A stretch of 43,046 nucleotides of DNA from a virus. Both the position numbers and the translations under genes were made by a program. The notes under the pieces were generated by a model, which saw only the letters and a list, made by a program, of their open reading frames with translations, made no database searches and was not told where the DNA came from. Shown piece after piece: positions 5,160-42,793 of the stretch; position 1 is the stretch's first letter, and every line of letters starts with the position of its first letter. The DNA is taken from IMG/VR virus record IMGVR_UViG_3300037485_000842, positions 1 to 43,046 of that record, one strand, 5' to 3'.

Positions 5160-5369
5160 ATGAATATACCGATGAAGATTGAGAGAGTAGATTTAGATGT
5201 GCAGTTTAGTTTTAGTGATGGGCAGATCGAGGATCTTGCGATATTTGTCGATGGCTCAGATGTCGATATTCATGATCTGATGAGTGATGAGATTGTGAGT
5301 AAGATTGCACAAGAGTGTTATGAGTATTGTCAGGACAGGGAACCGGATGATATGCCGGAAGGAGCGTAA
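5160..5369 (+). CDS. acidic hypothetical protein
   Basis: A 69-aa strongly acidic protein beginning MNIPMKIERVDLDVQFSFSD. The ATG at 5160 has AAAGGGGTGA at the right distance; the in-frame ATG at 5142 is less likely. It is rich in Asp and Glu (DGSDVDIHDLMSDE), which could mimic DNA or bind a basic partner. No family recognised. First gene of the recombination block. Confidence 0.6.
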   Translation: MNIPMKIERVDLDVQFSFSDGQIEDLAIFVDGSDVDIHDLMSDEIVSKIAQECYEYCQDREPDDMPEGA

Positions 5370-5732: not shown

Positions 5733-5952
5733 ATCGGCGGAATTGTACGATAACGAGCAGTTGTTCATGGAGTTGATCGGGGCGAGAGGGCATAAGCATA
5801 GAGAAGTCGTGCAAGGGGATCTTGTGAATGTTGTTCTTAGAATGAAGGTTCAGGATGTTTGTTACAGGAGCAAGCCTGAGCAGTCGATAGTCTGCGGAAT
5901 CACTGAAGATGGGATTCTCGCTCATGTTCCGTTGTCGGCTGTGGTGCTGTGA
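5725..5952 (+). CDS. hypothetical protein
   Basis: A 75-aa protein, ATG at 5725 with GGGGAAGGTG upstream. The fold looks like a small all-beta domain (DLVNVVLRMKVQDV, QSIVCGITEDGILAHVPLSAV) that could be OB- or SH3-like, but I cannot name a family. Its stop shares a base with the start of the nuclease gene (TGATG), implying coupled expression. Confidence 0.55.
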   Translation: MGESAELYDNEQLFMELIGARGHKHREVVQGDLVNVVLRMKVQDVCYRSKPEQSIVCGITEDGILAHVPLSAVVL

Positions 5953-6602
5953 TGCCGAGAGTCACTGAGATATTGGATTATCTGACAGAGCCTGAGTTGA
6001 TGAGATGGATTGAGAATAACTCAAAGGCTAAGAGGAAGGCTATTCAGGATGAGGCCCTGAGGGTTGGTTCTGCGTGTGATTTACTTGTTCAGCAAGATAT
6101 TAAAGATGGGGGTTATCTCGTCCCAGAAGGAGACACACCAATTGAGAATTGCATGAGAGCATGGGAATTGTTTAAGACTGAACATCCTGAGTTCATTGAT
6201 AGCGTAAAAGATATGCAGTTTGAGTTACGAGATGGTGAGTTGATTGGGCATCCTGACTTCCTGTGCAAGTTCAGAGAAACTTGGGGTATTGTTGACTTAA
6301 AGTGTGCGTCAGGAATAAGACCACGATACTGGACTCAGACTGCGATCTACTCAGAGATGGTTCGTCAGCACGTTGATCCGTTGTATTTGATGAATCATGA
6401 GATTGATATGCCGAGATTCATTGGAGTTCTTAGGCTCGATAAAGTCACAGCGACATATGAGTATATTGAAATCACAGATGAAATTTATATTCGCTATGAG
6501 ATTGATGTGTTCAGAGCGTATCAGCTTGCGTTCAGTCACAATGTAAACAACAGAGAAATGATCAGACAACAACTAGAAAAGGAGATTCTCAATGTATCAT
6601 AG
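5952..6602 (+). CDS. PD-(D/E)XK nuclease, RecB/Cas4-like exonuclease
   Basis: A 216-aa protein with the catalytic core of the PD-(D/E)XK superfamily: GHPDF (99-103), IVDLK (113-117) and the QTAIYSEM helix (129-136) that normally carries the motif-III Gln and Tyr. The N-terminal MPRVTEILDYL and the GSACDLLV segment match phage RecB-like exonucleases. Such enzymes resect DNA ends for annealing. The gene directly precedes, and overlaps, a Sak4-like ATPase, which fits a two-component recombination module. The GTG at 5949 is not needed. Confidence 0.78.
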   Translation: MPRVTEILDYLTEPELMRWIENNSKAKRKAIQDEALRVGSACDLLVQQDIKDGGYLVPEGDTPIENCMRAWELFKTEHPEFIDSVKDMQFELRDGELIGHPDFLCKFRETWGIVDLKCASGIRPRYWTQTAIYSEMVRQHVDPLYLMNHEIDMPRFIGVLRLDKVTATYEYIEITDEIYIRYEIDVFRAYQLAFSHNVNNREMIRQQLEKEILNVS

Positions 6603-7464
6603 AACCGCAGTGTTAGGGTGTCCGGGAAGCAGTAAATCAACGTGTGGACTGAGTTATCCGGGGGTTGAGCAACACGTCTTCGGGAGTGCAGAAGATGACA
6701 CAGCACGGAATTTCCCAAAGAGGACGGATATTCTTCCGCCTCTGAAGCTTGATTGGTTCGATTGTTTGACGGACGCAGAGAAAGCGAAGTTCACGGATGA
6801 GAAAGCGAGCGAAGAAGAGATTGGGAGATTGACTGAGGTTGCACGAGCGAAGAAGATTGCGAAGTATCGTAGATATCTGTATCAATTGAAACTTGATATT
6901 CCCCAAGGAAAACGACCAGAACTGAAGACGATCTTTCTTGATAACGGGACTCCGTTTGCACAAGAGTTCGAGGATTATGTAAAGATTGTGTTCAATAAGG
7001 AGTTCATCACGGATGGTGGAAATTTCAATTCAATCAAGTTCTCAATCAAATATCAGTCTGAGATGACTGATTTCTTGAGATTGTTTTATTCGCTTCCTTG
7101 TCATACTGTGATGAGCTTTCATATCGCTCAGGCTCTTGATGAAGCTGAGAGTGCGAAAGCGAATTTCTTGAAAGATACGAAGGAGGGGATTAGACGCCCA
7201 AAAGAATGGCAACCCATGATCTATGGCAAAGCGAAGTACGTGTTGGCTGGTATTCCTACTTGGGCGTTCTATCTGTGGTGCGAAGAGTCCGTGGGAAAGC
7301 CCAATGTGTACTTAGCGAAGCTTGAAGCTGATGAAGCGAATGTTGGGATTGCAAAAGGACGCATACAACCATTTGAGAAACCTAGTCGAATCGTACTCCC
7401 AAATGGGACATTCTATGATTTTTTAAACGAGGCAATGGAAAAGAAGTACGGAAAATCGGCCTAA
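6592..7464 (+). CDS. Sak4-like RecA-fold recombination ATPase
   Basis: A 290-aa protein. The N-terminal Walker A reads GCPGSSKS (9-16), a variant with Ser where Gly is usual before Lys. The Walker B strand is TIFLDNGT (113-120). The length and the C-terminal tail match the phage AAA_24/Sak4 family of core RecA-like ATPases, which load recombinases and stimulate annealing. It is preceded by a PD-(D/E)XK exonuclease and followed by a putative ssDNA-binding protein, the usual Sak4 neighbourhood. The enzyme should act in DNA repair and replication intermediates. Confidence 0.75.
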   Translation: MYHRTAVLGCPGSSKSTCGLSYPGVEQHVFGSAEDDTARNFPKRTDILPPLKLDWFDCLTDAEKAKFTDEKASEEEIGRLTEVARAKKIAKYRRYLYQLKLDIPQGKRPELKTIFLDNGTPFAQEFEDYVKIVFNKEFITDGGNFNSIKFSIKYQSEMTDFLRLFYSLPCHTVMSFHIAQALDEAESAKANFLKDTKEGIRRPKEWQPMIYGKAKYVLAGIPTWAFYLWCEESVGKPNVYLAKLEADEANVGIAKGRIQPFEKPSRIVLPNGTFYDFLNEAMEKKYGKSA

Positions 7465-7502
7465 TTCGAGGCATAAACTAAAACAAAAAGGAGATAAAAA
7501 CA

Positions 7503-8126
7503 ATGAGTAAGTATACAGAAGAGCAAGATGATATTCAGTTCAGTGAGCCGATTCTAGCACAGAAAGGTGTAAGGGTTGGGGTCGTGAAAGCAGAAAAGAA
7601 TCAATGGGAAGTTAAGACGAAAGATAAATGGACTCCTGAACAATTGGAGACAATGAAGCCATTGATTGGCAATAAGTATGATGCTTGCAAACTGTCAATG
7701 ATTATTTCAGATGATTCAGTGAAGACAGAACACGCTGATGCGAAGCCGAAGTTATCAGTTGATGATGTGTTCAATATTGAGAACTATCCGTTCCCTGATC
7801 AGAAGACTGGGGCATTGAAGCAGATGGGCAAGCAAAAGTTGTATGAACTTGAAGGAGCGTTAGGGTTTGACCCAGTGTTCGTGGCGAATGGTGTTGAAGT
7901 TGAAGCGTTCGTCACTCGCAATGGCAATAAGGTGGCCCCGAAGATTGAAGGAGTCAAGCGTAAGATCAATCCTGATTTCTTCAATGCTTATTTTGATGAA
8001 GATGGAACTCCGAAGATGTCAAACTGGGAGGGCAAGGTTCTCTACGCTGATATTGACGTTGAGACCTCAGAGAAGTTTGGCTCAAAGAATGTCATTAAAC
8101 GATACGTCAAATCCCCAGTAATCTAA
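7503..8126 (+). CDS. putative single-stranded DNA-binding partner of Sak4
   Basis: A 207-aa protein with AAAAGGAG upstream. The N-terminal part has a beta-rich section, the middle is a linker with charged residues, and the C-terminal PDFFNAYFDEDGTPKMSNWE segment is followed by an aromatic and basic end. I do not recognise a named domain. Assignment as an ssDNA-binding protein rests on position: in many phages the gene after Sak4 encodes an SSB. The alternating short strands are compatible with an OB-fold, but the evidence is mostly context. Confidence 0.4.
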   Translation: MSKYTEEQDDIQFSEPILAQKGVRVGVVKAEKNQWEVKTKDKWTPEQLETMKPLIGNKYDACKLSMIISDDSVKTEHADAKPKLSVDDVFNIENYPFPDQKTGALKQMGKQKLYELEGALGFDPVFVANGVEVEAFVTRNGNKVAPKIEGVKRKINPDFFNAYFDEDGTPKMSNWEGKVLYADIDVETSEKFGSKNVIKRYVKSPVI

Positions 8127-8142
8127 TCAAAAGGAGAGTCGT

Positions 8143-8619
8143 ATGATCATAGTCACTGACACGAGAGAACAGGATTGTTTGGAATTTGAAAAGCTTTCGG
8201 GGGTTAGCTATCAAACATCCTGTCTCTCGGTCGGTGATTATTCTGCGTTCTATGAGATTGATGGAAAAAAAGAGATGAGTAAGACGATCTTTGAGAGAAA
8301 GTCCTGTGCGGATTTGTTCGGGTCATTTACTGGAGATAATTATGATCGAGAACGAAATAAGATGATGAGGTATCGGGACTTTGGGTTTGAGAGATATATC
8401 TTAGCGATTGAGAACACGATGTTTGAGATTCGCAAAGGACATCAGTACAAGAAGGACGGGGAATGGCACGAGTGCAAGAAAGATGGGACTTCAATGGTCA
8501 GACAGCTTCTAACGTGTTCGCATAAGTACGGGATCATCCCGATGTTCTTTAATGGGCGAAAAGAAATGTCATTCTTTATTCAGGAATATTTCTTAGCAAA
8601 AGAGAGGGTAAAACTATGA
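8143..8619 (+). CDS. ERCC4-type nuclease
   Basis: A 158-aa protein with the ERCC4/XPF/Mus81 active site: TDTREQ (5-10), GDY (31-33) and IFERKS (49-54). It then has DLFGSFTGDNYDRERNKMMR and a DFGFERYILAIE strand, all in their expected order. Members cut branched DNA. The phage ones are single-domain proteins of about this size and sit in recombination blocks. The start at 8143 has AAAAGGAGAGT. Its stop overlaps the next gene as ATGA. Confidence 0.82.
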   Translation: MIIVTDTREQDCLEFEKLSGVSYQTSCLSVGDYSAFYEIDGKKEMSKTIFERKSCADLFGSFTGDNYDRERNKMMRYRDFGFERYILAIENTMFEIRKGHQYKKDGEWHECKKDGTSMVRQLLTCSHKYGIIPMFFNGRKEMSFFIQEYFLAKERVKL

Positions 8620-9164: not shown

Positions 9165-9175
9165 TCTATGGCCTT

Positions 9176-9241
9176 TGGCGGTAGATATACATGAGGCGAA
9201 GATAGAATCCTAGGTTCTTAGCCAACATTGTTGAGCCGCCA
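9176..9241 (+). ncRNA. structured intergenic element, nested inverted repeats
   Basis: TGGCGG (9176-9181) pairs with CCGCCA (9236-9241). Inside it GGC (9195-9197) pairs with GCC (9221-9223), and AGAA (9204-9207) with TTCT (9215-9218). All three stems nest in order, giving one long imperfect hairpin. No open frame or promoter fills it. It could be an RNA processing site, attenuator or small RNA. No known family matches by eye. Confidence 0.35.
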
Positions 9242-9259
9242 CTGGTCATTAAACCTAGC

Positions 9260-9274
9260 GACCATCAAACATGA
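9260..9274 (+). repeat. 15-bp direct repeat before the 9285 gene
   Basis: GACCATCAAACATGA at 9260-9274 recurs exactly at 9676-9690. The copies bracket the 127-aa gene 9285-9668: the first lies just before its ribosome site, the second just after its stop and before the next gene. This fits a gene cassette bounded by short homology. Confidence 0.7.
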
Positions 9275-9284
9275 GGAGAGCAAA

Positions 9285-9668
9285 ATGAGCGAAAGATATC
9301 CGTTGTATCCGAGATTAAGCGAAGAAGGGGTTAAGGAAGCCGAGGAGTTGTTTGTGGCTTTCAAGGAGAAGATGAAGAAGATTTCCGATGAAGTTCTTGG
9401 GGAGCTGTATGTTGATATCGCCCCGCACATCGAATCTGATTCTTGGGGGAATTATCGCAATGTGATTATGGCTGGGATGCAGAATTATGGAAACAGAAAA
9501 CTCCAAGCGGAACATGACTTCAAGAAAATAAGGGAGCAGATTTACAAGGATTTCCGAGAGGATATCATCAAGGATTTAGACCAAGATATGCTCAAAGAAA
9601 TAGACGAACTGAAAAAGTCTCTTGAGGAAACAAGGCAACGACTTCAAGACGCTTACAGAAGAATGTGA
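9285..9668 (+). CDS. conserved phage protein with coiled coil
   Basis: A 127-aa protein with GAGGAGAG before the ATG at 9285. It starts with a Tyr/Pro-rich tail (ERYPLYPRLSEEGVKEAEEL) and has the strongly conserved block IESDSWGNYRNVIMAGMQNY (51-70) followed by NRKLQAEHDFKKIR. A long C-terminal helix is rich in charged heptads (IIKDLDQDMLKEIDELKKSL) and is probably a coiled coil. The central block is one I recall from many phages; function is unknown. Confidence 0.65.
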   Translation: MSERYPLYPRLSEEGVKEAEELFVAFKEKMKKISDEVLGELYVDIAPHIESDSWGNYRNVIMAGMQNYGNRKLQAEHDFKKIREQIYKDFREDIIKDLDQDMLKEIDELKKSLEETRQRLQDAYRRM

Positions 9669-9675
9669 AGAAATA

Positions 9676-9690
9676 GACCATCAAACATGA
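9676..9690 (+). repeat. 15-bp direct repeat after the 9285 gene
   Basis: Second copy of GACCATCAAACATGA, exact match to 9260-9274, lying between the stop of the 127-aa gene and the start of the Cys-rich gene. A crossover between the copies would delete or swap 416 bp containing just that gene. Confidence 0.7.
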
Positions 9691-9703
9691 AATGGAGGGC
9701 ATC

Positions 9704-9913
9704 GTGGATAAGCAATGCAATCACAATGCAGGAGTAAGCAACACTAACATCAATGGTGGCATTGGAGGAACTGCTTGGAATGGCTACTGCCCATATTGTC
9801 AGCCGAAGTGTCCTTGTTGCGGTAGACCTTATTTCAGTTATCCGAGCCCAATTTATTGGCAAGCTCCTGTAATAACTTGTCAGACTCCGAACATGGGTCA
9901 AGCGACTTGTTAA
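9704..9913 (+). CDS. cysteine-rich small protein, zinc ribbon
   Basis: A 69-aa protein read from the GTG at 9704, which has GGAGGG four bases upstream; an ATG at 9692 lies over that site. The middle holds CPYCQPKCPCCGRPYFSYPS, four to five cysteines in a CxxC-x3-CxCC arrangement that probably binds zinc. The N-terminus is Asn/Gly-rich and resembles low-complexity linkers. Function unknown. Confidence 0.5.
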   Translation: MDKQCNHNAGVSNTNINGGIGGTAWNGYCPYCQPKCPCCGRPYFSYPSPIYWQAPVITCQTPNMGQATC

Positions 9914-9918
9914 CCCCC

Positions 9919-9936
9919 ACACCAAAACTTTAAGGA
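9919..9936 (+). repeat. 18-bp direct repeat before the adenine methylase
   Basis: ACACCAAAACTTTAAGGA is found here and at 10461-10478. It ends in the ribosome site of the methylase. The second copy forms the last codons of the same gene, so the methylase is bracketed. A shorter 13-base part (ACCAAAACTTTAA) is found again at 11132-11144. Confidence 0.75.
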
Positions 9937-9941
9937 TTGAC

Positions 9942-10475
9942 ATGAAAAAGTATCAGATTATCTATGCTGACCCACCTTGGGATGTTAAGAAGATTGTGCG
10001 TAAGGTTAGACCAAATCAGACAGCACCATTGGATTATCCAACGATGTCTTTAGAAGCAATAAAAGCGTTGCCGATAAAGGATATTTCAGAAGATAACTCT
10101 TGTCTGTTTCTTTGGACAACCCATTCTTATTTACCGAAAGCGTTTGAGGTTTTAACCGCTTGGGGATTTAAGTATCAGAGGACTATCACTTGGGACAAGC
10201 AAAATGGGATGTGCCTATTTGGGTTTCACCATCGGACAGAGTTTCTTCTTTTTGGGTATAAAGGAAAGATTGAAATGTATCCACGAAGAAAAGCGTTCCC
10301 GACAATTGTGCAAGCGAAGTCCGAAAGGCACTCATCAAAGCCACAAGTATTCAGAGATTTAATTGTTCCGTTTGGGGAATCTCGCATTGAATTATTTGCA
10401 AGACAGAAAACGGACGGGTGGGATGTTTGGGGAAATGAAGTTGAAAGCGATATTGTTTTAACACCAAAACTTTAA
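9942..10475 (+). CDS. MT-A70 family adenine-N6 DNA methyltransferase
   Basis: A 177-aa protein with the MT-A70 catalytic motif DPPW (10-13) inside YADPPWDV. It also has the family's conserved LFLWTTHSYLPKAFEVL strand-helix, and a C-terminal ELFAR (SRIELFARQ) just before GWDVWGNE. It transfers methyl from SAM to N6 of adenine in DNA; phages use such enzymes to evade restriction or mimic host methylation. It is flanked by exact 18-bp direct repeats, so it is probably a recently exchanged cassette. No cognate restriction enzyme is nearby. Confidence 0.85.
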   Translation: MKKYQIIYADPPWDVKKIVRKVRPNQTAPLDYPTMSLEAIKALPIKDISEDNSCLFLWTTHSYLPKAFEVLTAWGFKYQRTITWDKQNGMCLFGFHHRTEFLLFGYKGKIEMYPRRKAFPTIVQAKSERHSSKPQVFRDLIVPFGESRIELFARQKTDGWDVWGNEVESDIVLTPKL

Positions 10476-10478
10476 GGA
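10461..10478 (+). repeat. 18-bp direct repeat at the end of the adenine methylase
   Basis: Second exact copy of ACACCAAAACTTTAAGGA. Here it encodes the last residues TPKL and the stop, followed by the ribosome site of the next gene. Its match to 9919-9936 brackets the methylase. Confidence 0.75.
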
Positions 10479-10484
10479 GAGTGT

Positions 10485-10880
10485 ATGAATGAGCCAGCGT
10501 TTCCAGAACCAGAAGGTCTTGAGGAAATAATCAAGGACGTTGGGCATCAACCTCAGCCTCACACAATTCTCGATGAACGAGGGCAATATGAAGTTAAGTT
10601 GAAGGTAATCCAGATTTGCGAGTGTTTCATGCGTGGATTTATTTCTGGAGAAACAGACTACGGACATATTGGTTCTCAGACTGATGGTTGCCTTCCAGTC
10701 GAAAAACTTGGTTATCACCAGCTTATTGATTTGCTTTATGAGAATAAAAAACTCAAGTGGTTTGCTACGGTTGATCCGATGGCAGTAATACAAAACGGTT
10801 CGTGTTACATGGAAAAAGTCTTGGGGATATTTCCAAATGTTCCAATGCTCAAATCCAGAACAGAACCAAAAGGAGAGTGA
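10485..10880 (+). CDS. hypothetical protein
   Basis: A 131-aa protein, AAGGAG before ATG 10485. It begins with a Pro/Glu-rich section (EPAFPEPEGLEEIIKDVG) and continues with a helical domain containing VIQICECFMRGFISGETDYG. I do not recognise the family. The C-terminal SRTEPKGE resembles the end of the next gene (QRTEPKL), the result of a shared 15-bp DNA repeat. Confidence 0.6.
   Translation: MNEPAFPEPEGLEEIIKDVGHQPQPHTILDERGQYEVKLKVIQICECFMRGFISGETDYGHIGSQTDGCLPVEKLGYHQLIDLLYENKKLKWFATVDPMAVIQNGSCYMEKVLGIFPNVPMLKSRTEPKGE
10857..10871 (+). repeat. 15-bp direct repeat before the 10884 gene
   Basis: AGAACAGAACCAAAA recurs at 11124-11138. The copies encode the RTEPK tails of two successive genes and bracket the wHTH gene 10884-11144. 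Confidence 0.6.
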
Positions 10881-10883
10881 GGA

Positions 10884-11144
10884 ATGAATGATCATCAGAA
10901 AAAGGTTCTCGATTTCCTTGAGAAGAATTTAGAAGAGGATGAGTACGAAGGCGGGGCTTACTTCTCTTTCGCTCCAATATGTAATGCCACAGGGCTTGAC
11001 AGGAAAACTGTCAGGCTTGCTTGCCGATATCTGAAACGAAAAGGTCTTGCGAGGTTTTATGCGGGGCTTTGGGATAACGATGGCGGCTTTAGGGGAAGCG
11101 GATATTCTGCAATGCCTGAACAAAGAACAGAACCAAAACTTTAA
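10884..11144 (+). CDS. winged helix-turn-helix protein
   Basis: An 86-aa protein. Residues 25-52 (YFSFAPICNATGLDRKTVRL, then ACRYLKRKG) form a plausible winged HTH: two helices with a turn, the recognition helix, then a wing. It is probably a DNA-binding regulator. It lies in the accessory region and its last codons belong to a repeated sequence also found in the preceding gene and in the adenine methylase gene. Confidence 0.6.
   Translation: MNDHQKKVLDFLEKNLEEDEYEGGAYFSFAPICNATGLDRKTVRLACRYLKRKGLARFYAGLWDNDGGFRGSGYSAMPEQRTEPKL
11124..11144 (+). repeat. boundary repeat at the end of the wHTH gene
   Basis: This segment contains AGAACAGAACCAAAA (11124-11138, shared with 10857) and ACCAAAACTTTAA (11132-11144, shared with 9921 and 10463). 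It is a junction where two boundary repeats fuse, as expected if cassettes were inserted one after another at the same homology. Confidence 0.6.
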
Positions 11145-11155
11145 CGGGAGGGAGT

Positions 11156-11338
11156 ATGACAAAGGTTGAGGAAGTAACCAAGCATTTGTTGAACATCAAC
11201 GGAGCGTATCTTGCGTTGAAGCAGATTAAGCTGAACCTTGAAAACTGCAAGGACGGAGAATATTCCTACAACAGATGTTTCAACAATGTTCTGGAACTGA
11301 CGAATGTTGCTCTTGAACATATTGGGCGTGAACTATGA
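11156..11338 (+). CDS. small hypothetical protein
   Basis: A 60-aa helical protein, GGGAGGGAGT before the ATG at 11156. It contains NGAYLALKQIKLNLENCKDG and a C-terminal NNVLELTNVALEHIGREL. No recognised family. Its last four bases overlap the next gene's start. Confidence 0.55.
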   Translation: MTKVEEVTKHLLNINGAYLALKQIKLNLENCKDGEYSYNRCFNNVLELTNVALEHIGREL

Positions 11339-11529
11339 CATCCAAAAGTGATGGGAAAAAGGTATCAGAGGAATACATGCTTCGGATGATTGCCGATTGC
11401 AAGCACCAATGGCTTGCCTGGTTTGACGATATTGTTAGGAACGATGGTTTTGCAATCTCATTTCAAAGCATGGGGCAATACAGAAACGGTCTTAGGAAAG
11501 CAATCAAGAATGGGATGGAGGCTCCATGA
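11335..11529 (+). CDS. small hypothetical protein
   Basis: A 64-aa protein overlapping its neighbours on both sides by four bases, so part of a coupled string. The sequence EEYMLRMIADCKHQWLAWFD is helical and aromatic, and the end (RNGLRKAIKNGMEAP) is basic. No recognised domain. Confidence 0.55.
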   Translation: MTSKSDGKKVSEEYMLRMIADCKHQWLAWFDDIVRNDGFAISFQSMGQYRNGLRKAIKNGMEAP

Positions 11530-12134
11530 ATGACATGAGTGAGGAAAAGGAATGCAAGGTTCTTAATTTATACGCAGGACTTGGGGGAAACAGAAAGCTA
11601 TGGGAGGGGAGTGTAACATCGGTAGAGAAAAATCCAGAGATAGCGGAGATATATAAAAGTTTCTTTCCGCAGGATGAGGTCATTGTCGGGGATGCTCATA
11701 CTTATCTTTTGGAACATCACAAAGAATACGATTTTATCTGGAGCAGTCCCCCGTGCCAAAGCCATAGCAAGGTCAGGATGATGGCGAGTAAGTCTGGGAG
11801 CTATCCCCCAGTTTTTCCAGATATGAACTTATGGCAGGAGATTCTGTTCTTGAAACATTTCTTCAATGGTAGGTGGGTCGTTGAGAATGTGAAACCTTAC
11901 TACAAGCCGTTCATTGAACCAACAATCTGCATCGGGAGACATTTGTTCTGGAGCAATTTCCAAATCAATCCAAAAGAGTTTGATGACAATTTATCCCACA
12001 ACGAGAGAGGGACGAGTTTAAAGGGAGTGTTTGATTTGAGAGGATTCAAGACGATGCACAGAAAAGACCAGCTTATAAGGAACTGCGTAAATCCAGAGAT
12101 TGGGAAATATTTACTTGAGGAGGCAACGAAATGA
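11526..12134 (+). CDS. C5-cytosine DNA methyltransferase, short form
   Basis: A 202-aa protein with C5-methylase motifs: motif I NLYAGLGGNRKLW (14-26), motif IV SPPCQSHS (74-81) with the catalytic Cys77, and motif VI RWVVENVKPYY (116-126). At 202 aa it is shorter than typical stand-alone enzymes of 300 aa or more, with little room for a target-recognition domain, as seen in other small phage homologues. It would methylate cytosine and protect phage DNA. The ATG at 11526 has GGAGG; another at 11535 begins the 17-bp repeat shared with the HNH gene. Confidence 0.78.
   Translation: MNDMSEEKECKVLNLYAGLGGNRKLWEGSVTSVEKNPEIAEIYKSFFPQDEVIVGDAHTYLLEHHKEYDFIWSSPPCQSHSKVRMMASKSGSYPPVFPDMNLWQEILFLKHFFNGRWVVENVKPYYKPFIEPTICIGRHLFWSNFQINPKEFDDNLSHNERGTSLKGVFDLRGFKTMHRKDQLIRNCVNPEIGKYLLEEATK
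11535..11551 (+). repeat. 17-bp direct repeat at the methylase start
   Basis: ATGAGTGAGGAAAAGGA recurs exactly at 12131-12147 at the start of the HNH gene. The unit between them contains just the cytosine methylase. Encodes MSEEKE here and MSEEKD there. Confidence 0.75.
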
Positions 12135-12147
12135 GTGAGGAAAAGGA
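12131..12147 (+). repeat. 17-bp direct repeat at the HNH start
   Basis: Second exact copy of ATGAGTGAGGAAAAGGA, 596 bases after the first. Both copies are start codons with the same N-terminal MSEEK, so recombination would leave a good reading frame. Confidence 0.75.
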
Positions 12148-12589
12148 TGAGAGGAAGTGTAAAAGATGCGGTGTTGAGAAGTCTGCTGATTGCTTTTTCA
12201 AAAGTCGTCGGTTGGTTTGTTCTTCATGTTGCAATGAGTATCAAAATCGTTATCGAAAGCAACGGCTCGAAAAAATGAAGAAAGACAATCCATTGGCTTA
12301 CTCTTTGTATAAAGAAAAAAGGAGGAAAGACCAGCAAAGATGGTCAGACTCTCATCATTTCAGTGGGAACGGAACCAAGGCTCTTGAACGGGACGGATTT
12401 AAATGCACGGAATGTGGGATTACCAACGATGGGCATATCTCAAAATACGGACGCATTCTTGTAACTCATCATAAGGATGGAAAAGGTTCACGAGCAAAGT
12501 TTAACAATAATGAGTTAAGTAATCTCCAGACGCTCTGTATTTCATGCCACGCAACAATACACGGGAGGCTTTTGTATGGAAGAGTGTAA
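12131..12589 (+). CDS. HNH endonuclease with N-terminal zinc ribbon
   Basis: A 152-aa protein. Residues 10-33 hold CKRC and CSSC, a zinc ribbon. The HNH fold follows: CTEC (92-95), then VTHHKDGKG (111-119), NNNELSNLQTLC (125-136) and SCHATIHG (138-145). HNH enzymes in phages are usually homing or packaging-associated nickases. Here it lies beside a cytosine methylase with which it shares its first 17 bases, in the region of direct-repeat cassettes. It overlaps both neighbours. A homing nuclease that spreads cassettes is a reasonable inference. Confidence 0.8.
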   Translation: MSEEKDERKCKRCGVEKSADCFFKSRRLVCSSCCNEYQNRYRKQRLEKMKKDNPLAYSLYKEKRRKDQQRWSDSHHFSGNGTKALERDGFKCTECGITNDGHISKYGRILVTHHKDGKGSRAKFNNNELSNLQTLCISCHATIHGRLLYGRV

Positions 12590-12899
12590 GAATTGCCAAT
12601 CCTTATCGTCCAGACTGAAGGAAGCGGAGAAGGAGCTTGCAGATTTAAAATCAACATCAATCCCAGCCGTTGAAGTATATCCTCTTGACCAAGAACTCAC
12701 AGAGGACAATGAAGAAAATGTTGACTTGAAAGATAGACTTTCCCAAGCGGAGGAGATAATCTTACACAACGCCCAATCCGGTGTTCTGGTGAGGACGATG
12801 GAGCAGAGTGATATTGAACAGATTGTCCGAGGATTCAACGTATCAGAAACAGGGGCAAAGCTGATTGCTGAAGCCATAGCCAGAAGGATGAAGGGATAA
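12576..12899 (+). CDS. coiled-coil hypothetical protein
   Basis: A 107-aa acidic protein overlapping the HNH gene by 14 bases; GGGAGG precedes the ATG. Heptad-like segments CQSLSSRLKEAEKELADLKS (7-26) and EENVDLKDRLSQAEEIILHN (46-65) suggest a coiled coil. No domain recognised. It ends just before the structured element at 12900. Confidence 0.55.
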   Translation: MEECKNCQSLSSRLKEAEKELADLKSTSIPAVEVYPLDQELTEDNEENVDLKDRLSQAEEIILHNAQSGVLVRTMEQSDIEQIVRGFNVSETGAKLIAEAIARRMKG

Positions 12900-12987: not shown

Positions 12988-13272
12988 ATGACTACCGAGC
13001 AAGAGAAGAAGTGTGATTGCAAAATCGAAGAAGCATTGGGGATTACACCAATGTCAAAAGAGGTTACTGGAAACAATGCCATTGATGCACTTAACGACCT
13101 CAAGGACTCCCTGCGGATTGCGGAGGGCGATATCGCTCAACTGCATGACACCCTTCTTTACATGAGGGACTATCTTAAACACAGAATGAGACCAGAACCA
13201 GAAAACGAACTACACTTATGCTTGTTGGGAATTGAACGTGCCAACTCAGCACTTCAGAGGATTAGACAATGA
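12988..13272 (+). CDS. hypothetical protein
   Basis: A 94-aa protein with AAAGGAGATTGAA before its ATG, immediately after the structured element. It begins with a Cys pair (CDCK) and has a helix-rich body (NAIDALNDLKDSLRIAEGDI, HDTLLYMRDYLKHRMRPEP). No family recognised. If the element is regulatory, this gene is its most likely target. Confidence 0.55.
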   Translation: MTTEQEKKCDCKIEEALGITPMSKEVTGNNAIDALNDLKDSLRIAEGDIAQLHDTLLYMRDYLKHRMRPEPENELHLCLLGIERANSALQRIRQ

Positions 13273-13427
13273 CCAGAGAAGATAAAATTCAACAATTATT
13301 AAGACACGCCTTTGGATGCCTTCAGAAATCAAAGTGTAATTGCAAAAAACTGATTCAGGAGTTTCTTCAAAGTGATGAAGTGTCTTTAAACTGGGCAAAG
13401 AAATTAAAACAAACTTCAGAGGATTAG
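13269..13427 (+). CDS. 52-aa cysteine-containing hypothetical protein
   Basis: The ATG at 13269 overlaps the preceding stop as ATGA. The protein has C17, C23 and C25 in a short span (GCLQKSKCNCKK) and is otherwise helical and basic. Its role is unknown. The overlap supports it as a real gene. Confidence 0.5.
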   Translation: MTREDKIQQLLRHAFGCLQKSKCNCKKLIQEFLQSDEVSLNWAKKLKQTSED

Positions 13428-26055: not shown

Positions 26056-27612
26056 TTAAATCCTCCCCGTATAAGGCCGTGCATAAGTTGTGTATTCAAT
26101 GAATGTCGCGATTTTCCCGCTTACTGAGTTTGTGATTCTGTACTGAACGTAACTTCCTCGTCCTGAGAACTTTGTTCTGAAATTTCCAGTTGCGTCCGTT
26201 AGAGCAACCGTAGTCGCTGGAGTTGTGAACGGAGTTGTTAGATTCCCAGTTAATGCAATCTGCCCGACTGTGACCCAACCTCCTTCATCGACTTGCATTT
26301 CAATGAGATAGATTCCGTCAGAGCCACCATCTGCCACAAACTGACTAGGGTCAAAAATCTTAATAATAAACGAATCATCAAAATCAATCTGTCTCGTGAT
26401 AATTCTCTGAGTGATCGCTGTTCCTGCATCTGTTGTTCCATTTAAAACTTTATAGCAAAGAGAAGTTGCTAGGGATGAACCACCGACGAACGTCTTGATG
26501 TTGTCCCCAAACCCGAACGAGCTCATGCACGATAAATTCCAAGTGGCTTTTGGAACTGTCGTCCACGCTGAATTAGGATCACCGTTTCTTTGTGCGGCGA
26601 TTGAATCCCAAATAACTGTTCGATCAGGAACTGTAGAAGTTCCAGTTGGGATGTTAAGAATATAAAGGCCGTTCTCGAACCATGCGTTTGCTGTATCGAT
26701 TGCATCCCAGTTGATTCCGTCAATGATGTCTCGAATCGGGTCTGAGATGACTCCAACTCGTAACTTGTCAAATGTCGTACGAGAAAGAAGACGAACCCCG
26801 TCATTCGCTAGAAAGATATGATCATTTCCGATGTCTTGAACTGTTCTCCCTGCCGAGCATCCAACTGCCACACTCAATGGCTTCAGATCCCAATCAGTGA
26901 GGGGAGTTGCTCCATCCATGTTCAAAACATGAATAGAATCATTCTTGTAGATGATCAACTCGAACTCTTTGAAAGCTTTCAACCATGTGACTTTTCCACC
27001 ATCACCGGAACGAACTTTGAACACGTTCGTCGCTCTATCCCACGTCTGTGGGTCAATAGCATTTGAGAACCACACATAATCTTTTGTACTTTGAGTAAGA
27101 CTTCCTGAAGCAAACATTTTATTGTTCGGAGTCCACTCCGCTACTGTACTAAGTGGAAAATCAGCATTCGTATCATTCTCATCTGTTACAGTAAACGCTG
27201 AATCAATACTGAACACATGATCTGTTCCGTTCAAAATGAAACATTTATCTAGGGCTTGTATGAAATTAGTCTGTAATCCAGTTGTGAGAGTCGTTAGCCC
27301 AACGATGTCTGTCCAGTCTGAATAATCATCAGCCAGTCTTTGAATCTTAGTCGCTCTTGCACGAAGTAAAGTATCAAGCGTTCCCCCAACATTATAATGG
27401 ACTAACCCAAGAATCTTATTCGTCGTGCTATTCGCAGTTCCAAGAACAGTCAGCCCATTTCTCTGAGTGCATTTTCCTTTCTTCGTGATGATAGAATTCT
27501 GAAGAAGTTCAGCTTGATTCTTCCCGATACTCGCTGTCTCATCCGAGGAGTTCTGTCCACCTGAGAAATCATTCTGCTGATACTTCACTCGGTTAGCAAT
27601 CAGAACTGACAT
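26056..27612 (-). CDS. tail nozzle / hub protein, gp10- or gp12-like
   Basis: A 518-aa protein. The N-terminal QNDFSGGQNSSDETASIGKN and QNSIITKKGKCTQRNGLTVL are the conserved start of podovirus tail stabilisation proteins (N-D-x-x-G-G...L.N....K.G...R.G). A beta-propeller-like series follows (WTTVPKATWNLS, YVWFSNAIDPQTWDRA). The protein would sit below the adaptor ring and form the tail tube of a short tail. Next to the adaptor gene, as expected. Confidence 0.7.
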   Translation of the reverse strand: MSVLIANRVKYQQNDFSGGQNSSDETASIGKNQAELLQNSIITKKGKCTQRNGLTVLGTANSTTNKILGLVHYNVGGTLDTLLRARATKIQRLADDYSDWTDIVGLTTLTTGLQTNFIQALDKCFILNGTDHVFSIDSAFTVTDENDTNADFPLSTVAEWTPNNKMFASGSLTQSTKDYVWFSNAIDPQTWDRATNVFKVRSGDGGKVTWLKAFKEFELIIYKNDSIHVLNMDGATPLTDWDLKPLSVAVGCSAGRTVQDIGNDHIFLANDGVRLLSRTTFDKLRVGVISDPIRDIIDGINWDAIDTANAWFENGLYILNIPTGTSTVPDRTVIWDSIAAQRNGDPNSAWTTVPKATWNLSCMSSFGFGDNIKTFVGGSSLATSLCYKVLNGTTDAGTAITQRIITRQIDFDDSFIIKIFDPSQFVADGGSDGIYLIEMQVDEGGWVTVGQIALTGNLTTPFTTPATTVALTDATGNFRTKFSGRGSYVQYRITNSVSGKIATFIEYTTYARPYTGRI

Positions 27613-27613
27613 T

Positions 27614-28630
27614 TTAGTATGAGTTTCCTAGGTTATAGAGATTCCGTTGGCCGTACACCTGTGGCTCTCCGTTATCAGGAACGATTTGTTTAATGAGATT
27701 CCGTGGTCTCATTGCAATCCATAATTCTTTTACACTATTCGCAAACTTCTGTTCTTGATCCTGTGCCCCTGTGACTTGCCCGTCTTCCCAAAGAGCGTCA
27801 GCTACGACCCCTTCAACGAGTTCATTCGCACATGGGATGATCGGGGCATCATTGTCATTGACAAGAGGAAGCCACCGCTTCTTGTACCACACTTGAAAGG
27901 TTGCGTTCGCTGATGGCATTAGAGACAGGCGAATCCACTTGAATAACGGAGAGCGATCACTTGGAGATAATTTAGCAAGAATATTAGTCGCAGTTGTCTT
28001 CTCACGAACAGTAATGACTCCAACTGCATCAGTCAAGGTTGCTGATGAACTTCCCTGAGCGATCTGAAGTTCTGAAGATGCGTCATAAGTGTTCGCTGAA
28101 TCAACGGCAGTGGCTCCTGTAAGTGTGATGTCTTCGCTAACTGTCATTCCGCTGACTTCTCCTGTGATTCTTACGATACACGGAGCAACATCTGACGCAG
28201 AAGTCGATAATACCTGGACTTTATCAGCGACAGACAATAACGCAGAACAGGACTTTGAGCCGATAGGAATATAATGATCAGCAGTTCCAGTCTGAACATT
28301 CCCGACAACCTCAAGACTCACAGCATTGAATCTTACGTGATCACGAATATCTAACGCAGTGATCTCTTTTCCGTTAGTCGTGTCCCACATCTTAATGACA
28401 TCTTCGAGATCATAACGAAGCGAGTAATCACGAGTTCCAGAAATGATCGGAAGGTTATAGCTCCTATTAAGCTCTCCCCAAGGAAAGTTTCTAAGGATTC
28501 TATCGTATCGGGTGCGAACCCAGTCCTTGACCTTGGGGAGAAGATCATTTGCGTTTGTCGTAGACGTGCTAGTATTCTGAACACACGCCATCGCCCTGAC
28601 TTGGATGCGTTTGAACGTATCGTTTATCAT
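27614..28630 (-). CDS. head-tail adaptor protein
   Basis: A 338-aa protein. N-terminal and C-terminal helical regions (DLLPKVKDWVRTRYDRILRN and ELVEGVVADALWEDGQVTGA) flank a Thr/Ser/Val-rich insertion of about 110 residues (VSGMTVSEDITLTGATAVDS), which is probably an Ig-like domain. The helical parts have the layout of gp4/gp11 adaptor proteins that dock on the portal. AAGGAGCGTT precedes the ATG. The insertion makes it longer than the simple adaptors. Confidence 0.65.
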   Translation of the reverse strand: MINDTFKRIQVRAMACVQNTSTSTTNANDLLPKVKDWVRTRYDRILRNFPWGELNRSYNLPIISGTRDYSLRYDLEDVIKMWDTTNGKEITALDIRDHVRFNAVSLEVVGNVQTGTADHYIPIGSKSCSALLSVADKVQVLSTSASDVAPCIVRITGEVSGMTVSEDITLTGATAVDSANTYDASSELQIAQGSSSATLTDAVGVITVREKTTATNILAKLSPSDRSPLFKWIRLSLMPSANATFQVWYKKRWLPLVNDNDAPIIPCANELVEGVVADALWEDGQVTGAQDQEQKFANSVKELWIAMRPRNLIKQIVPDNGEPQVYGQRNLYNLGNSY

Positions 28631-28639
28631 AACGCTCCT

Positions 28640-28819
28640 TTATGCTTCGTCAGTATAGACTAACCACGCCAAGTATTTGTTATCGTTTGTTTTAGTGATT
28701 CCACAGTTCATATTCAGTCTAGTAACATCCACCAAATGAATCAAAGTCTCTAATGCAGTAGCGGCCTCTTCTACCGTATTGCAAAGGGTTTTTGCATTAT
28801 GTGATGTGTATTTTGCCAT
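28640..28819 (-). CDS. 59-aa small protein in the head-tail region
   Basis: Read directly from the gap. ATG at 28819 with AGGAGATAAGTC upstream; stop at 28640. The protein MAKYTSHNAKTLCNTVEEAA followed by TALETLIHLVDVTRLNMNCG is mixed alpha-beta and ends LAWLVYTDEA. Small genes of this kind occur next to adaptor genes. Function unknown. Confidence 0.6.
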   Translation of the reverse strand: MAKYTSHNAKTLCNTVEEAATALETLIHLVDVTRLNMNCGITKTNDNKYLAWLVYTDEA

Positions 28820-28830
28820 GACTTATCTCC

Positions 28831-29310
28831 TTATGCCGCCTGAGCGACTGTAATTCCAGAACCAGTAAATGGGACGACCATCACGTGACCGAATTGATCC
28901 TCTAATGTCATTGTGAGAGTTCCAGCCGCACTGAAATCTGCGTTGCTAGGATTCATCTTCGCAATCTTCCAACGCTGAACAACGCCACTAACTGGACATT
29001 CAATGCAGAACTCCCCACGAAGTTTATAGAAGTTTGATCCTTCCCCAGCATCTGTGAGTGGAGCCACCATTCTTGCTCCGTTACCAGATTCAGCACCAAC
29101 GGTTTCAGGTCTGAACGTCAGTTTATAACCATCTGTTGTGGTGATAGCTGTCTGACTTGGGAGAAGATAATAACGAACGTCTGTCGTGCTATTATCATCA
29201 ATGGTAAGATTGAACGTCTGGGCGTTAGTGACGGTATGCGTGATTCCTGTAACATCAACGTATAACCATTCACCTGTATCGATTGTAACTACTGAAGTAA
29301 CTGTGGCCAT
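28831..29310 (-). CDS. virion-region structural protein
   Basis: A 159-aa beta-rich protein (GEWLYVDVTGITHTVTNAQT, ADFSAAGTLTMTLEDQFGHV). GGAGGATGAA precedes its ATG. The composition (Thr, Val, Gly) and position before the adaptor suggest a head or tail accessory protein. I do not recognise a family. Confidence 0.5.
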   Translation of the reverse strand: MATVTSVVTIDTGEWLYVDVTGITHTVTNAQTFNLTIDDNSTTDVRYYLLPSQTAITTTDGYKLTFRPETVGAESGNGARMVAPLTDAGEGSNFYKLRGEFCIECPVSGVVQRWKIAKMNPSNADFSAAGTLTMTLEDQFGHVMVVPFTGSGITVAQAA

Positions 29311-34482: not shown

Positions 34483-34555
34483 AGCTGAAGGAGGGATTCG
34501 AACCCCCGACCCTCTGTTTACAAAACAGATGCTCTACCAACTGAGCTACTCCAGC
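34483..34555 (-). tRNA. tRNA-Thr (TGT)
   Basis: A 73-base cloverleaf on the minus strand. The acceptor stem is GCTGGAG with CTTCAGC (one G-U). The D-arm is GCTC...GAGC. The anticodon stem is TCTGT/ACAGA with loop TTTGTAA and anticodon TGT, reading ACA (Thr). The T-arm loop is TTCGAAT and N73 is T. CCA is not encoded. It lies between the head protein and the glycosyltransferase operon. Confidence 0.95.
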
Positions 34556-41934: not shown

Positions 41935-42044
41935 TATTCCTCTTGATTATTCGTGTGTATAAAATATGCTGAATCATCATAGCCGCTTGTAATCATCTTA
42001 AAAGCAAAAGCGCTTCTAAAGTGAAAACTTGGCGAATCAATCAA
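41934..42044 (-). CDS. 36-aa microprotein ahead of terL
   Basis: A frame from TTG 42044 to TAA 41934. The TTG overlaps the methyltransferase stop (TTGA) and the TAA overlaps the terL start (TAATG); CGGAGAAG lies eight bases upstream. The predicted protein is MIDSPSFHFRSAFAFKMITS followed by GYDDSAYFIHTNNQEE. It fills the gap exactly, which supports it, but the start codon is weak. Otherwise the region is a 106-base spacer. Confidence 0.45.
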   Translation of the reverse strand: MIDSPSFHFRSAFAFKMITSGYDDSAYFIHTNNQEE

Positions 42045-42559
42045 AACATCTTCTCCGATTCTTTCCTCAAGACGATAGTTCCGAATCGTCCTTTGCATTC
42101 CTTATACTTCTTAAAGTTCGGGTGATCCTCCAAGAAGATATTGATCGCCCGATTAACCATGAACTTGATGTTCTCTTCCTTGAAGTTCGTGTCGTGAATG
42201 CCGATGAAGCCACCAGCTCTAACTAACGGACTAAAGAAATGAAGATCCGCAATCGCATGACTCGTCCGGTGATCGCCATCCACGAACAAATAATCAAGAC
42301 TCGTCGGCAACCTCCTATAATCCACCCACGGACTAAACGTCTCAATCATCTCAGCGTACTCAAACAATCCCGCCTTCACCATATTCTCCTTCCAGATCGG
42401 AATCGGCTCGCACTCCACACAATACAACCTCCCACCATTCCTCTTCGCCTCAGCCGCCAATATCAAACTGCTCGTCCCTGTCCGACTCCCTATCTCCAAG
42501 ATAACCTTCGCCCCTATCACTGTCTCACTTATCAACTTCACATCATCGTCACTCAGCAT
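42041..42559 (-). CDS. class I SAM methyltransferase (Methyltransf_24 / TylF-like)
   Basis: A 172-aa Rossmann methyltransferase. VILEIGSRTGTSSLILAAEA (19-38) is motif I; LYCVECEP follows; LDYLFVDGDHRTSHAIADLH (88-107) is the motif with a metal-site Asp typical of the CmcI/TylF group; GGFIGIHDTN (115-124) closes it. These enzymes often methylate sugar hydroxyls. It lies apart from the six-gene sugar operon but could act in the same pathway. Its start and leader are shared with the upstream gene through a 17-bp repeat. Confidence 0.7.
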   Translation of the reverse strand: MLSDDDVKLISETVIGAKVILEIGSRTGTSSLILAAEAKRNGGRLYCVECEPIPIWKENMVKAGLFEYAEMIETFSPWVDYRRLPTSLDYLFVDGDHRTSHAIADLHFFSPLVRAGGFIGIHDTNFKEENIKFMVNRAINIFLEDHPNFKKYKECKGRFGTIVLRKESEKMF

Positions 42560-42779
42560 AAGTCACTTTTAAAATTTCTTTCAATGTTTCCCCTAAATAA
42601 AAACAATAGGCAGGAATCGCAACATTCTTAAATCTTTTTTTAGAAATGCTTTCTATTATTGGTCTAAATGTATTTTCATTATCAATATATAAGTACCATC
42701 CTTTACAGTCCCCATCCATTTGACTATACCTGTTATAAATTAACTTCGTATTAAAGCTAATTTTTATCTCTTTTCTCAT
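42549..42779 (-). CDS. AT-rich inserted gene, hypothetical protein
   Basis: A 76-aa protein (MRKEIKISFNTKLIYNRYSQ start, KSKKRFKNVAIPAYCFYLGE-like centre). It is visibly richer in A and T than its neighbours. The 17-base sequence TTTAAAAGTGACTTATG ends in its start codon and recurs at the start codon of the methyltransferase gene 220 bases on. Thus the gene sits exactly between direct repeats, as if added as a unit. No family recognised; no good ribosome site. Confidence 0.55.
   Translation of the reverse strand: MRKEIKISFNTKLIYNRYSQMDGDCKGWYLYIDNENTFRPIIESISKKRFKNVAIPAYCFYLGETLKEILKVTYAE
42557..42573 (-). repeat. 17-bp direct repeat, methyltransferase start
   Basis: On the plus strand CATAAGTCACTTTTAAA; on the minus strand it ends in the methyltransferase ATG. 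Exact match to 42777-42793. Confidence 0.8.
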
Positions 42780-42793
42780 AAGTCACTTTTAAA
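42777..42793 (-). repeat. 17-bp direct repeat, inserted-gene start
   Basis: Exact match to 42557-42573, ending in the ATG of the 76-aa gene. The two copies bound a 220-bp unit. Confidence 0.8.

Follow-up and report, generated by a model that had tools for sequence, protein, structure and literature searches.

Clean swapping of single genes by phages is a long-standing question, to which the usual answer is illegitimate recombination together with selection. The question arises again in IMG/VR record IMGVR_UViG_3300037485_000842, a phage DNA of 43,046 bp with a G+C content of 43%, the whole of which is called here the window. The region 9.25–12.6 kb may be read as an array of accessory genes spaced by a fixed series of short junctions (P, P, Q, R, R, S). 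Can such junctions direct the exchange of whole genes? We think it probable that short conserved junctions serve here as sites of homologous or annealing recombination by which single genes are exchanged. Cassette exchange through boundary homology, proposed in a preliminary description of this DNA, is supported by the finding, in other phages, of the same junctions with other genes and of exact empty sites.

Repeats and junctions in the window

The preliminary description had reported four exact repeat pairs at gene boundaries, and all of them are found where it placed them: GACCATCAAACATGA at 9260 and 9676, ACACCAAAACTTTAAGGA at 9919 and 10461, AGAACAGAACCAAAA at 10857 and 11124, and ATGAGTGAGGAAAAGGA at 11535 and 12131. 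The threefold presence of ACCAAAACTTTAA is likewise confirmed (9921, 10463 and 11132). Two further pairs had been overlooked, ACTTCAGAGGATTAG at 13251 and 13413, and CATAAGTCACTTTTAAA at 42557 and 42777 on the minus strand. In total, the window holds seven direct pairs that match exactly over 15 bp or more and lie at most 1 kb apart, compared to 0.06–0.09 expected from Markov simulations, so that the claimed excess over random expectation stands. In six of the seven, the copies directly precede or span the starts of two genes that follow one another. The seventh (17910 and 18744), within a 438-amino-acid (aa) open reading frame (ORF) of the minus strand, is the sole close 15-bp pair away from gene starts.

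According to the ORF list of the window, early genes occupy the plus strand up to ~13.6 kb and structural genes the minus strand beyond. Leader stretches of at least 15 bp are shared by 5 of 28 neighbouring early-gene pairs and by none of the 378 pairs of genes that are not neighbours (order permutation p = 5e-5); this confinement to neighbouring leaders is unlike a general regulatory motif. Moreover, the upstream end of several repeats reaches into the final codons of the gene before. The pairs described as bracketing a gene are real, although they are better described as junctions between successive genes.

A DNA-pattern scan with the 18-mer ACACCAAAACTTTAAGGA over 2.9 million viral contigs (IMG/VR) found it in only three other records, in each directly before a gene start: G019 (a 21.7 kb fragment), G020 (an 11.4 kb fragment) and G021 (43.1 kb). 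Further junction patterns gave the same three records; the sole additional matches, to one 17-mer in L146–L149, are four chance occurrences away from array-type gene starts. Cultured phages and plasmids held no junction match above chance, and two junction patterns scanned in 84,980 bacterial and archaeal genomes gave no match. The junctions are collinear with those of the window (all three have Q and R, G020 and G021 have the two P junctions, and G021 has S), and the exact matches span 16–40 bp. The genomes themselves are very different, with a G+C of 48–50% in G019–G021 versus 43% in the window, and with one common gene (10485, 97% aa identity, in G021), the other matches being remote only. 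The junctions and cassette genes of the window are the following, with positions in the other phages in brackets.

9257..9277, plus strand: junction P1, AGCGACCATCAAACATGAGGA; exact over 21 bp in G020 (5985) and over 16 bp in G021 (26743)
9285..9668, plus strand: cassette gene between P1 and P2, ORF of 127 aa, unassigned; family matches weak, below cutoff
9674..9701, plus strand: junction P2, TAGACCATCAAACATGAAATGGAGGGC; in G020 (6688) 19 bp exact and 25 bp at 96%, in G021 (26906) 24 bp at 96%
9704..9913, plus strand: cassette gene, ORF of 69 aa, Cys-rich, GTG start; no family match
9912..9936, plus strand: junction Q1, AACCCCCACACCAAAACTTTAAGGA, left of the MT-A70 cassette; exact over 25 bp in G021 (28466), 22 bp in G020 (6979), 21 bp in G019 (104)
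9942..10475, plus strand: cassette gene, MT-A70 adenine methyltransferase; PF05063 E 3e-25, phrog_359
10461..10497, plus strand: junction Q2, ACACCAAAACTTTAAGGAGAGTGTATGAATGAGCCAG; exact over 35 bp in G019 (628), 29 bp in G020 (6983), 27 bp in G021 (28473)
10485..10880, plus strand: cassette gene, 131 aa, unassigned; 97% aa identity to G021 28727-29086
10844..10891, plus strand: junction R1, AATGCTCAAATCCAGAACAGAACCAAAAGGAGAGTGAGGA..ATGA; exact over 40 bp in G021 (30793; 96% over 49 bp) and over 28 bp in G020 (7236) and G019 (903)
10884..11144, plus strand: cassette gene for a winged-helix/HTH protein of 86 aa; PF13730 E 2e-5, narrowly below cutoff
11123..11159, plus strand: junction R2, AAGAACAGAACCAAAACTTTAACGGGAGGGAGTATGA; exact over 29 bp in G020 (8151) and over 22 bp in both G021 (29066) and G019 (619)
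11156..11529, plus strand: a multi-gene cassette of two short ORFs that overlap (60 and 64 aa), without an internal junction
11532..11553, plus strand: junction S1, coding (MSEEKE), GACATGAGTGAGGAAAAGGAAT; 22 bp exact in G021 (30831)
11526..12134, plus strand: cassette gene, C5-cytosine-methyltransferase-like, 202 aa; PF00145 E 2e-6
12131..12148, plus strand: junction S2, coding (MSEEKD), ATGAGTGAGGAAAAGGAT; 18 bp exact in G021 (29762)
12131..12589, plus strand: cassette gene, HNH endonuclease; phrog_1271 E 1e-10, PF01844 E 0.001, just under cutoff

Some of these genes end or begin within the junctions. The final codons of the MT-A70 gene (..TPKL and the stop) are supplied by the junction repeat, the homology to its relatives stopping at ESDI, ~10454, and the nucleotide identity of the 10485 gene with G021 begins at 10521 and ends at 10871, within R1. 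The C5-cytosine-methyltransferase-like protein is ~49% aa identical to Vibrio and Gordonia phage methylases. Before P1, the stretch 9165-9259 has no clear gene and reads ..NPRFLANIVEPPLVIKPSDHQT and a stop in the frame of the P1 tail. A helicase-like ORF of G021 has the same KPSDHQT end, so the stretch may be the remnant of an upstream gene end.

Other genes and empty sites between the same junctions

Comparison with other phages at the junctions bears out the prediction of the preliminary description, giving both other genes between the same junctions and single-copy empty junctions, the latter base for base. The P1–P2 slot holds the 127-aa protein in the window, an N6/N4 DNA methylase in G020 and no clear gene in G021, and the slot between the two R junctions holds the winged-helix/HTH protein in the window and a C5-cytosine methylase in G020. 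The 40-bp exact R1 separates the 10485 and winged-helix/HTH genes in the window, and two different genes in G021.

The empty sites were obtained by joining the flanks of a cassette in the window. For Q, the left flank of Q1 and the right flank of Q2 with one copy of the 18-mer read AACCCCCACACCAAAACTTTAAGGAGAGTGTATG: window 9912-9936 plus 10479-10487 equals G021 28466-28499 (34/34 bp), and 9915-9936 plus 10479-10489 is present in G020 at 6979 (33/33 bp), the MT-A70 gene being missing at this site in both phages. Around the winged-helix/HTH gene, window 10852-10871 plus 11139-11152 is present in G020 at 8146 (34/34 bp), and in G021 one R junction alone, with no winged-helix/HTH gene, comes after the 97%-identical relative of the 10485 gene. 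Other relatives of the window were also compared. Among the MT-A70 relatives (80 loci, the best with 87% aa identity), none of the window repeats occurs in the five closest and four others checked. The window is that of a tailed phage, as judged from its terminase gene (phrog_2) and from a portal-like gene common to it and its relatives; the terminase/portal relatives have structural genes in common with it (up to 89% aa identity) but not the early region, so they provide no test of empty sites.

Could these matches arise by chance, or from similarity of ribosome sites and start codons alone? Weak leader similarity does exist, for instance CAAAAGGAGAGT at 8127 and 10866. However, matches of at least 17 bp to control phages (786 kb) outside the methylase gene number 11, of which just two fall in the array, both of them off the junctions, whereas G019–G021 (76 kb) give more than 20, all within the array or the shared gene. 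Together with the seven pairs against the expected 0.06–0.09, this makes chance exceedingly improbable. Ribosome-site and start-codon constraint, which the preliminary description had named as what could refute its proposal, fails as an explanation: the conserved parts of the junctions lie mostly outside (upstream of) the ribosome site, the spacing varies, and unrelated genomes share the junctions.

The base composition of the array differs from that of its surroundings in two phages, with 41% G+C in the 50% genome of G019 and 44% in the 51% genome of G020 (7–9 points lower); no equal-length stretch is lower in G+C than the array (0/199 in G019, 0/50 in G020). In the window, the array has no G+C contrast with the rest of the genome. 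Such shifts would also be expected if short repeats in mixed phage populations had caused the four contigs to be assembled as chimeras; all four records are metagenome assemblies, and G019 starts ~100 bp before its Q junction. Nevertheless, the junction order is identical across records with different IMG sample numbers and the genes between junctions are intact. In addition, both ends of the window carry an identical 127-bp repeat, as in a circularly closed assembly. We consider chimeras very unlikely.

Further repeats and shared motifs lie outside the P to S series.

12735..12753, plus strand: shared motif T, coding (RLSQAE), AGACTTTCCCAAGCGGAGG; 19 bp exact in three places in G021
13251..13427, plus strand: repeat pair U, ACTTCAGAGGATTAG at 13251 and 13413, preceding the gene starts 13269 and 13440 in two different reading frames; in the window only, with no copy in G019–G021
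42557..42793, minus strand: repeat pair TTTAAAAGTGACTTATG, at the starts of the minus-strand genes 42041-42559 and 42549-42779

A lone tRNA-Thr gene (anticodon tgt) lies at 34483-34555 of the window, amid minus-strand genes. In G021, at ~27300-27690 in reverse-complement coordinates, a 314-aa ORF of the array that consists mostly of tandem repeats (VWDSV/RASV) adjoins an HNH gene.

Probable recombination at the junctions

The eleven copies of Q and R in the window, G019 and G020 align on an invariant ACCAAA core, around which the left halves TGCTCAAATCCAGAACAGA, AACCCCCAC and CAARGAACAGA pair variously with the right halves CTTTAAGGAGAGTGTATG, CTTTAACGGGAGG and GGAGAGTGAGG. This reassortment of halves is the pattern expected for crossovers falling in the core. 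The junctions form the C-terminal tails of some upstream genes (..MLKSRTEPKL or ..KPSDHQT, then the stop) and lie past the stop codon in others, so that it is not the protein sequence that is conserved. We infer that they are what is left of the 3' ends and leaders of genes that formerly resided there. An origin by tandem duplication of gene plus leader was ruled out, because neighbouring genes belong to different families.

The junctions might instead be functional leaders, that is, translation-initiation or transcription signals for a phage or host factor, which are selected for expression and make exchange a side effect. All of them lie at gene starts, the spacing from Q to the start codon is near constant (~8–9 bases), and the SAS/ESAS elements of Cluster K mycobacteriophages likewise precede genes of different families (PMC3203893). 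Against this, there are several unrelated sequences in a fixed order rather than one motif, and they are missing from the rest of each genome. R lies 0–38 bases from the start codon, once ~75, and in one case (G020 7249) abuts the ATG without a ribosome site, while the first P in G021 precedes no clear gene. Furthermore, no sigma-70-like promoter match was found at any junction, although the sigma-70 type may not be that of the host, no terminator-like site coincides with a junction, and the junctions have no inverted repeat or stable fold (fold z between -0.6 and +0.7), which also rules out a PeSL-like stem-loop element. In our opinion, selection for expression is an unlikely explanation.

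Dedicated site-specific recombination, integron-like or invertase-like, would account for the single-gene cassettes and for the short core ACCAAAA common to Q and R. Yet searches for tyrosine and serine recombinases (PF00589, PF00239), in which the controls matched, found none in the four records, two of which (G019 and G020) are fragments. An integron-like process was rejected for these four records. The junctions lack inverted repeats and folding, and the P, Q/R and S sequences are unrelated, some being within coding sequence. Site-specific recombination of either kind is thus highly improbable.

Exchange by homologous or annealing recombination would proceed as follows. In a typical junction, the final codons of a gene that once resided there would be followed by a short linker and then by the ribosome site and beginning of the following gene. 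When two phages co-infect a cell, recombination between their matching junctions would allow single genes, and sometimes small groups, to be gained, lost or replaced. Insertion would leave the junction on both sides of the new gene as a direct repeat, and recombination between the two repeats would delete the gene and restore a single junction. The exchange presumably goes through the phage's own annealing proteins, encoded just upstream of the array.

5949..8126, plus strand: presumed recombination module, with an exonuclease-like gene (5949-6602; phrog_298 E 3e-7), a Sak4-like annealing ATPase (6592-7464; phrog_124 E 4e-5, AAA_24 E 0.002, below cutoff) and a 207-aa protein of no assigned family (7503-8126)

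In G021, a Gp2.5-like annealing/SSB protein (phrog_112 E 2e-56) and an exonuclease (phrog_69) adjoin the array. Single-strand annealing activity is reported for the Sak4 of phage HK620 (PMC5928155). The preliminary description had also given the HNH nuclease a role in the exchange, for which no evidence was found other than that both the window array and the G021 array contain HNH genes.

Several observations weigh against this exchange. The junction set is known in four phages only, all of them metagenome contigs, and the collapsed sites usually have different flanking genes from phage to phage. The upstream gene is retained, with the winged-helix/HTH cassette missing, at G021 29055-29087 alone, and there the right-hand match past the repeat is 7 bp. 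The G+C contrast of the G021 array is weak (11/299 windows are lower), and the Sak4-like assignment is weak as well (E 4e-5). Moreover, the 15–18 bp repeats are shorter than the reported pairing segments, which are 23–27 bp for Red-beta and 31–34 bp for RecA (PMC3945230, PMC2327257), whereas the junctions shared between phages reach 20–40 bp exact.

The exchange may be a dedicated system, or it may be ordinary phage recombination acting on leftover homology. That the junctions are maintained as position-specific recombination addresses, selected for exchange itself, is a possibility that we hold tentatively and regard as rather doubtful. It would imply, with the same reserve, that unrelated phages of one host community keep joints of 20–40 bp, and not genes, and draw on a shared pool.

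Known modular systems and the meaning of the array

The array works like the junction-guided modular shuffling of T4-type and lambdoid phages. In the PeSL shuffling of T4-type phages (2010; Comeau et al. 2014; cited in PMC4503421), exchangeable accessory genes are separated by short conserved intergenic sequences, thought to guide homologous exchange. A conserved intergenic sequence between interchangeable genes is present in the window array too. Compared with the PeSLs, the window junctions are without stem-loop and without early-promoter match, have several position-specific sequences instead of one composite motif, and are common to phages with unrelated backbones. In lambdoid mosaicism, phage-encoded Red-beta/Rad52-like annealing proteins exchange modules via short flanking homologies (PMC2327257, PMC3945230). 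The likeness extends to the short conserved flanks, the phage-encoded annealing proteins, the matching sequence on both sides of the unit and the single-copy empty sites (G020, G021). The difference is that lambdoid exchange involves related phages and often gene fragments, whereas here whole single genes lie in unrelated backbones and the junctions alone are conserved. The SAS of Cluster K is one 13-bp ribosome-site-like motif dispersed over the genome, to which ESAS adds 17-bp inverted repeats (PMC3203893). Like the junctions, it is short conserved DNA standing just ahead of gene starts in various gene families. Unlike it, the window junctions are mostly upstream of the ribosome site, depend on position, lack inverted repeats, are confined to one array and have no single consensus at a fixed spacing (0 to ~75 bases for R). 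New here is that junctions without the PeSL stem-loop or promoter match link phages with unrelated backbones.

In other phages, leader repeats of at least 17 bp, with other sequences, bracket 5 of 68 MT-A70 genes and 6 of 759 other genes (Fisher p = 0.001), an exploratory count for which the thresholds were not fixed beforehand and in which one locus (L011) is repeat-rich. At L011, L037, L044, L063 and L072 the MT-A70 gene is bracketed by 19–28 bp repeats of unrelated sequence, and two of these repeats contain AACCCCC or ACCCCC, like Q1 of the window. Among the structural relatives, some also have start-associated repeats in small-gene regions, with sequences different from those of the window, namely G005 at 5281, 5821 and 6074 (L117; 18–27 bp) and G011 at 1713 and 1868 (L119; 17 bp).

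The preservation of joints across nearly unrelated phages, together with the exact cassette-free joints, makes the route of exchange directly testable. The gene pool is presumably drawn on for modification genes that counter restriction. As several kinds of DNA methyltransferase are in the cargo, we think that the array may be a way for these phages to renew their protection against host restriction. If the junctions were indeed maintained as addresses, each phage could use them to take up modification and accessory genes one at a time from a common pool.

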